Source: Gemmatimonadota bacterium (GTDB lineage: Bacteria > Gemmatimonadota > Gemmatimonadetes > Longimicrobiales > Gaopeijiaceae). Taken from it: a DNA stretch of 40,141 nt. Positions 19,353 through 20,735 of this stretch are shown here, piece after piece (the stretch's first letter is position 1; each line of letters starts with the position of its first letter). The position numbers were made by a program, and so were the translations under genes. The DNA lies in contig SLDT01000041.1 in assembly GCA_007125125.1 (NCBI GenBank), positions 1 to 40,141 of the forward strand. The letters are read 5' to 3'. The notes under the pieces were generated by a model. It was not told the DNA's origin and did no database searches. It saw only the letters and a list, made by a program, of their open reading frames with translations.

Positions 19353-19394
19353 GGGGCGCCCGCTGCCTCCGGTTCGGGTTCCCGGGGCAGGGCA

Positions 19395-19779
19395 ATCGGT
19401 GAGGGGGTGCCCCGGACACTCGCGCTGCTGGGGCCACTGCCGGCGAGGGCATGGCTTCCCCCTGCTTTCCCAGAGGCTCGGTCCTGCGAACCCCCTCAGA
19501 GGGTGTTTACATACTACGAATGGGTCCCGCGCAGGGGTCTTGCGGTCCTGGTCAAGGCGGAGTGCCGACAGCGATGCCGTAGCATCGGTAAGGCGCTCCA
19601 ACGCGGATCCGGGGCCGCAACCCCCCTTCGCCCTTCGGGTTGGGGCGGAACGGGGCCGCCTCGGTCGTTGGTTCGCCTCGACGTAGCCACGGCTATGTCT
19701 TCGACGAACCGCCTACGATTCGGCCCCGTTGCGCTCCCAACGGGACCCATTCGTAGTATGTAAACACCCTCTCACCGAT
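19395..19779. repeat. Structured repeat, copy A (interrupted by a MITE-like element)
   Basis: With the inserted element (19499-19771) and one TCA copy removed, 109 bases remain, bounded by a perfect 14-bp inverted repeat, ATCGGTGAGGGGGT (19395-19408) and its complement split across 19490-19498 and 19775-19779. The core shares a 22-base identical block (19414-19435) and later blocks (GAGGGC, TTCCCAGA, GCTCGGTCCTG) with copy B at 20394-20499 in opposite orientation. Inner complementary pairs CTGGG/CCCAG and GGAC/GTCC recur in both copies. It could be a small mobile palindrome or an RNA-structure element. Confidence 0.7.
19499..19771. mobile_element. 273-bp MITE-like element with 31-bp terminal inverted repeats
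   Basis: The ends (19499-19529 and 19741-19771) are perfect inverted repeats of 31 bases beginning GAGGGTGTTTAC. Both sides are flanked by TCA (19496-19498 and 19772-19774), a 3-bp target duplication of the kind made by some IS5-family transposases. Ends starting GAGGGTGTTT also fit that family (from memory, not searched). No transposase is encoded. The interior is full of nested palindromes: CGATGC/GCATCG (19572-19587), AACGGGGCCG/CGGCCCCGTT (19649-19658, 19721-19730), GGTTCG/CGAACC, and GACGTAGCC/GGCTATGTC with one G-U pair. It would have to be moved by a full-length relative elsewhere in the genome. Confidence 0.75.
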
Positions 19780-19861
19780 CGCCGTTCACGGGGATCGGAT
19801 TCGGCGGACCGTGCGATAGTGCCGTCGGGGTTCGTGTGCCGCCTCGACCACCGAGCGACCT

Positions 19862-20034
19862 CAAGTCTTCACCGCGCGCAGGATTTCGGGAGCGTGAAGA
19901 CTTGTACCCCGTATTCCGACACGAATCCTTCACCGTCATCTCCGTCTCGGACGAGCGTGAAGACTTGTGGTCGCTTTCCGACCTCAACCCTTCACGACCA
20001 TCTTCGTGCTGCCTTCGCTGAAGGGTTGGGGTCG
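19862..20034. repeat. Array of three ~62-bp hairpin units
   Basis: Three units in tandem each have a left arm ending CTTCAC and a right arm starting with GAAG after 21-24 bases. Unit 1: CAAGTCTTCAC (19862-19872) with GTGAAGACTTG (19894-19904), 11 of 11 paired. Unit 2: AATCCTTCAC (19924-19933) with GTGAAGACTTG (19957-19967), inner six paired. Unit 3: a 16-bp stem, 19979-19994 with 20019-20034, one G-U. Left arms end 61 and 62 bases apart. The change from AGT/ACT in unit 1 to ACC/GGT in unit 3 keeps pairing. Confidence 0.75.
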
Positions 20035-20074
20035 CGCGGGCCGCGCATCACGCGCTGCGCTCAAGGCGCTGCGC

Positions 20075-20203
20075 GAACCAGGCGGGCCGTGCATCCCGCC
20101 CTGGTTCCGAGCTCGGACGATGTGCATGACTCGCGAAAGAGAGCGTATTCCGCGGAATATGAGATCGGTCGTACTCCGTGACGAGGGCTCTGGCGCCGAG
20201 CCC
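20075..20203. other. Cluster of separate palindromes, no gene
   Basis: Within 130 bases lie three inverted repeats: GAACCAGGCGGG with CCCGCCCTGGTTC (20075-20086, 20095-20107, one bulge), the perfect 14-base palindrome TATTCCGCGGAATA (20146-20159), and GGGCTC with GAGCCC around TGGCGCC (20185-20203). No start plus ribosome site or protein-like composition is seen. The bases between here and 20257 show nothing I can name. Confidence 0.6.
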
Positions 20204-20256
20204 ATCGTAACTGTAGGGACCAGCAGAGGCCGGCGGAACAACGTCCTGGAGGTGGG

Positions 20257-20399
20257 CCGGTTGCATGGGAGACGCTCGGCCGGTTGCACGGGAGCCGGCC
20301 AGTCCGGTTGTACGGGAGACGCCCGGATCGGTTGAACGCGCGGCGCCCGCTCCGGTTGAACGCGCGGCGCCCCCGCGGGTTGCACGGGAGCGTCCATGG
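20257..20399. repeat. Six-unit 24-bp tandem repeat
   Basis: The block GGTTG recurs at 20259, 20282, 20306, 20330, 20354 and 20378: spacings 23, 24, 24, 24 and 24. A unit reads approximately CCGGTTGNACGGGAGNCGCCCG. Units 4 and 5 are the most alike (CGGTTGAACGCGCGGCGCCC). The array abuts copy B of the structured repeat. With a period divisible by three, the minus strand can read an octapeptide such as RAPRVQPE repeatedly, but no start signal supports a protein. Confidence 0.8.
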
Positions 20400-20499
20400 G
20401 GGGGGTGTACAGGACCGAGCTTCTGGGAACGGCGGAGGCAGCCAAGCCCTCGGCGGCGGCGGCCCCAGCAGCGCGAGTGTCCAGGACACTCCCCCATGG
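20394..20499. repeat. Structured repeat, copy B
   Basis: Inverted relative to copy A and roughly 80% alike by eye over the core. It is bounded by CCATGGGGG and CCCCCATGG instead of copy A's ends, so the outer stem has a different sequence but is still complementary. It directly follows the 24-bp tandem array. It contains the 14-base palindrome AGTGTCCAGGACACT-like segment near 20476-20490. Not protein-coding as far as I can see. Confidence 0.65.
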
Positions 20500-20591
20500 A
20501 TGCTGCCCGGCCATGCCCCCTGCTGGAGACAGCCAGGGAGCAGGGAAATCCCTCGAGGGGGAGGAGCGGGCGCCCGGGGAGTGTCGACGGA

Positions 20592-20652: not shown

Positions 20653-20735
20653 CGGAGGGGGTGGGATTCGAACCCACAAGCCCTTTCGGGCGCCGGTTTT
20701 CAAGACCGGTGCAATAGCCGTTCTGCCACCCCTCC
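20653..20735 (-). tRNA. tRNA-Ser (anticodon UGA)
   Basis: Reading the minus strand from 20735, the acceptor arm GGAGGGG pairs with CCCCTCC. The anticodon arm CCGGT-CTTGAAA-ACCGG gives anticodon UGA. A long variable arm (GCCC-GAAA-GGGC) marks a class II tRNA, and the T arm is GTGGG-TTCGAAT-CCCAC. The discriminator base is G, as in serine tRNAs. The CCA end is not encoded. The tRNA reads UCA-type codons. The repeat-rich gene-free stretch begins directly beyond its 3' end. Confidence 0.97.

Follow-up and report, generated by a model that had tools for sequence, protein, structure and literature searches.

Two palindromic structures lie one within the other at positions 19395-19779 of the DNA analysed here (the window, 40,141 nucleotides from a Gemmatimonadota bacterium). 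Did a mobile element land in an older repeat, and if so, what moved it and where does its interior come from? The original prediction, made from the letters of the window, proposed that a 273-bp MITE-like element had recently inserted into a smaller palindromic element. We followed it up by comparison with the other copies in the same genome and with related genomes.

The 273-bp element interrupts an older repeat

Two copies of TCA (19496-19498 and 19772-19774, forward strand) bracket a 273-bp insert (19499-19771, forward strand), with junctions that read ...CCCCCTCA|GAGGGTGTTTACATACTACGAATGGGTCCCG...CGGGACCCATTCGTAGTATGTAAACACCCTC|TCACCGATC... in the window. A repeat search returned the arms 19498-19529 and 19741-19772, complementary at 32 of 32 positions, which correspond to a 31-bp terminal inverted repeat (TIR; left, 19499-19529, forward strand; right, 19741-19771, minus strand) plus one base of the TCA. 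Excision of the insert together with one TCA leaves a perfect 14-bp pair, ATCGGTGAGGGGGT...ACCCCCTCACCGAT. The predicted perfect ends, 3-bp duplication and restored inverted repeat can thus all be read directly in the sequence. The interrupted repeat has its left part at 19391-19498 (forward strand; 14-bp arm at 19395-19408, last bases TCA) and its right part at 19772-19790 (forward strand), which starts with the second TCA and completes the 14-bp arm.

Eight paralogs of this host repeat in the same genome (C30, C86, C69, C214, C265, C191, C87 and C125), about 90-95% identical to the window copy, carry a single TCA and an uninterrupted junction. Since such empty sites exist, the nested insertion is demonstrated and not merely deduced from symmetry. 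The insertion stands confirmed and is of an ordinary kind. The two folded repeats do lie together in the window, as they would if they formed one composite element moving as a unit, but this is practically out of the question: beside the eight uninterrupted host copies, a dozen other loci have the ends of the 273-bp element without the host repeat, so that a search of the genome gives two separate sets of places, and no copy was found that unites the 14-bp arms and the 31-bp ends. The composite unit was rejected on the empty sites.

No Pfam domain was detected in the three open reading frames overlapping the insert, and there is no transposase gene. The RNA fold of the insert reaches -189.5 kcal/mol (z = -13.5), in agreement with the highly folded, transposase-free interior that had been described.

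The host repeat and its neighbourhood

The smaller palindromic element of the original prediction has the expected 14-bp arms but belongs to a longer repeat, whose homology begins near 19371 and reaches at least 19830. With a model of this repeat (R2), one of the 298 sampled genomes was positive, namely its own. Across 17 copies, the core is invariant and the outer stems vary with compensation (nine two-sided pairs). A second, uninterrupted copy lies on the minus strand at 20382-20509 (R2, 118.6 bits); pairs on opposite strands are also present in L021 and L026. The host repeat is followed by a module of GTGAAGACTTG/CTTCAC hairpins with a period of about 62 bp (19838-20177); it is present at about eight further places in the genome, in many cases 25-200 bp downstream of this host repeat. 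A tandem array (20255-20390; period 24, 5.7 copies, consensus GGCCGGTTGCACGGGAGACGCCC) adjoins the second host-repeat copy, and a tRNA gene (20653-20735, minus strand) lies near this cluster. At the gathering score, Rfam 15 detected only the tRNA in the whole window; near the element it gave only weak chance hits.

A TNA-target family with ends seen in one genome of the order

A search of the genome with the TIR pattern, allowing up to three mismatches, gave 15 matches at 13 loci, compared to none with the reversed control. TNA stands directly before all 15 ends. The assembly is incomplete (274 contigs, many breaking at repeats) and both ends are assembled in only two copies, that of the window and that of C271, which has TGA on both sides; this second duplication of 3 bp is what had been anticipated for other copies. 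Solo or truncated ends occur in C232, C246, C190, C223, C240 and C264. The TIRs of all these copies are almost identical to each other, which fits the recent movement proposed from the perfect ends.

The GAGGGTGTTTAC TIR was found in none of the other searched genomes of the order (154 in that search, its own alone positive). The full-length IS with GAGGGTGTTTAC ends that the original prediction suggested looking for was found neither in the assembly nor in the sampled genomes of the order. MITEs that lack a surviving autonomous partner are common. Likewise, the assembly yielded no IS5- or IS1031-type transposase associated with these ends. Its PF01609 matches (an IS1182 copy, a truncated frame and an IS701 frame) were discarded as candidates, as none carries these ends, and the sole match to NF033580 was the IS1182 copy, below cut-off. 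There were no matches to the element among plasmid and phage records, and no earlier description of it was found in the openly accessible literature.

Members of the IS1031 group of IS5 insert at TNA and duplicate 3 bp (PMC12016507). This target rule holds for 15 of 15 ends, and the two copies with both ends show both duplications. The CTAG/YTAR duplication of IS1182 elements is found in the YTAR-family relatives described below, but the window copy has TCA instead. From these targets, we infer that the window copy was mobilised by an IS5-type transposase of the IS1031 kind.

The folded core is found within other ends

The interior of the element is common to elements with other ends. Its conserved folded core occupies 19526-19744 (forward strand), and element positions 28 to 246 recur in the same genome at 95-96% identity inside AAGGCTGTTGAAGAAGTACAGCGGCC ends, mostly flanked by YTAR duplications. 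A BLAST search matched the core or part of it in 28 of 98 genomes, and the copies examined in relatives have other ends. Around the core we saw seven or more types of end, among them AAGGGTGTTGCGAAAA, AAGGGTGATCGGAAA, GGGAGCCTCTGCGCACG, AGGAGCCTATCCGAG and AGCAGGTCGCTGAAGG. The exact core motif occurs in 64 stretches of named records, all from Gemmatimonadota. A model of one of its arms (R1, arm H2) was positive in 32 of 298 sampled Gemmatimonadota genomes, 24 of them from the same family and the rest from the same class. Between copies, end replacement is symmetric, with a shared CCCG/CGGG as boundary; copies also differ by small hairpin modules, exchanged or added.

These comparisons suggest a core that is older than the GAGGGTGTTTAC ends and a recent change of jacket upon it. 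What is new here is a folded, conserved core with ends that vary from copy to copy and have apparently been exchanged between transposase systems. The label 'MITE-like' suits the TIRs, the duplication and the missing transposase; the interior is moreover a conserved structure, more than the merely folded one foreseen.

The other jackets have counterparts among known ISs. In related genomes, ISs of the IS1182/IS5 type are flanked by YTAR duplications, CTAG among them, and their ends include AAGGCTGTTGAAGAAGTCGC (L168), AAGGCTGTTGAAAAAAGG (L169), CAGGTCGCTGAAAAAG (L170) and GAAGGTGACCGGAAAG (L162). For all four transposases the best match is the IS1182 model, whose cut-off is passed by L162; L168, L169 and L170 pass only that of IS5_4. 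With their similar ends and YTAR/CTAG duplications, these ISs show that the common jackets resemble known IS-type ends. By contrast, the jacket of the window copy was seen only in its own lineage. The IS1182 copy of the own genome has a CTAG duplication and GATCGGAAAGGGG ends. On contig C94 of this genome (L079:1286-3234) lies a complete IS of the IS1182 family, flanked on either side by CTAG and carrying a transposase frame of 574 aa.

The fold is a covarying three-way junction

The full element is predicted to fold as a three-way junction, with an outer stem that coincides with the TIR and two arms, H1 (19527-19633) and H2 (19637-19743). In an alignment of 19 copies, 94.3% of cells pair. Two-sided changes affect 53 of 88 pairs, amounting to 246 doubly changed cells, against about 41 one-sided changes. 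Controls with slid partners gave 18-42 doubly changed cells, a comparison that favours the structure somewhat because structure and count come from one and the same alignment; none of 500 shuffles reached the observed values. The outer stem covaries too. Loops and internal loops are among the most conserved columns, and the loop motifs TCGTTGG, CTCGACGTAGC, GGCTATG and CCGCCT are conserved between genera.

The minus strand of the element also folds strongly as DNA. Counts of G-U versus A-C at variable wobble cells revealed no clear strand bias, and DNA-level and RNA-level readings therefore both remain.

H2 is the best-conserved arm (forward strand; R1, 125 bits; 35-copy alignment). The same model finds H1 on the minus strand, scoring about 46-57 bits in seven copies, that of the window among them (49 bits, E 2.7e-9; L059 1529-1635); the appropriate baseline is the reverse strand of H2 itself, at 20-43 bits. 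TCGTTGG...CCGCCT is common to both arms in inverted orientation. Direct pairwise comparison of H1 and H2 is weak in several copies and the model search is clearer; together they suggest that H1 and H2 are homologous in inverted orientation. Such an arrangement with common motifs places similar motifs on both strands of the element.

Insertions at stop codons

In the TNA family, 7-8 of 13 loci have a long reading frame whose stop codon, TGA or TAA, coincides exactly with the target (C232, C246, C223 and C264 are examples); in the YTAR family, 15 of 38 loci are on a stop codon. In L069 (1385-1665), one CTAG target serves as the end of the frames on either side, and the duplication restores it for both. 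Stop codons make up 8% of the available non-coding TNA sites, in a rough count that overestimates intergenic space; an enrichment is thus likely in direction and uncertain in size. Survival offers a simple explanation, the duplication restoring the stop codon that was interrupted. A target rule combined with target duplication can in this way hide an insertion from the encoded protein.

Origin of the element and role of its core

Taken together, the data make it very probable that a MITE was mobilised in trans into the TNA target of an older palindromic repeat, and that an old core had been re-jacketed with GAGGGTGTTTAC ends. A transposase acting in trans would have inserted 19499-19771 at a TCA of the pre-existing repeat, with duplication of 3 bp. 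The ends, the duplication, the empty sites and the dispersed copies document the event itself; the IS1031 kind of the enzyme is our deduction. The interior would be of older date: a strongly folded module, its two arms inverted, that travels mostly inside IS1182/IS5-like, YTAR-duplicating ends, in its own genome and elsewhere in the class. In its own lineage, both ends would have been swapped at the symmetric CCCG/CGGG point, from which a new family of MITEs bearing GAGGGTGTTTAC ends would have arisen. This replacement is reconstructed from copies that display its outcome only.

Why the core persists can be answered only tentatively. The role that we prefer is that of a strand-symmetric hairpin module tolerated, and perhaps useful, at the 3' ends of genes, where TNA and YTAR targets would often be the stop codon, restored by the duplication. 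Put more fully, the core may be a functional folded module (an RNA 3'-end element or a DNA structure) under selection across a class of Gemmatimonadota, persisting by exchange of its ends, riding different transposases and often settling on stop codons; we hold this as a possibility of modest weight.

Equally tentative is selection on transposition only, in which a DNA hairpin or cruciform would pair any ends and raise mobility for any transposase that recognises them. The outer stem, formed by the TIR, covaries too, the minus strand has its strong DNA fold, the arms are apparent inverted homologues, so that the strands look alike, and there is no G-U bias, all of which agree with a role in the DNA; the loop motifs, however, are kept between genera beyond the needs of simple folding. 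It is rather unlikely that the core is under no selection at all, the family being old junk that one set of IS ends after another has spread, with a covariation produced by palindrome correction through template switching. The large excess of two-sided over one-sided changes, unlike that of many RNA families, is what such correction would give, yet it cannot maintain the sequences of loops and internal loops, which are conserved across genera.

Comparison with known systems

Among bacterial MITEs, the window element resembles those that the IS1031 group of the IS5 family mobilises in trans; these are likewise short and transposase-free, with perfect TIRs starting with GAG and a 3-bp TNA duplication. 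It differs from them in that no matching IS was found, and in that its interior does not derive from a known IS by deletion but is a conserved fold common to elements with other ends. The MITEs with IS1182/IS5-type ends and YTAR/CTAG duplications have the same core, and their ends and duplications resemble those of the IS1182/IS5-type ISs of the phylum; the window copy differs from them in its TNA targets and its unrelated ends. Enterobacterial palindromes of the ERIC/RUP/NEMIS type are likewise folded intergenic repeats, often near the 3' ends of genes; compared to them, the window element is larger, forms a three-way junction with two inverted arms and shows clear end exchange between copies. 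MITEs usually count as copies of one IS with an internal deletion, and it is by their ends that they are defined. Here the interior persists and the ends are exchangeable, which makes it testable whether a folded core can give a mobile element fitness independent of its transposase.
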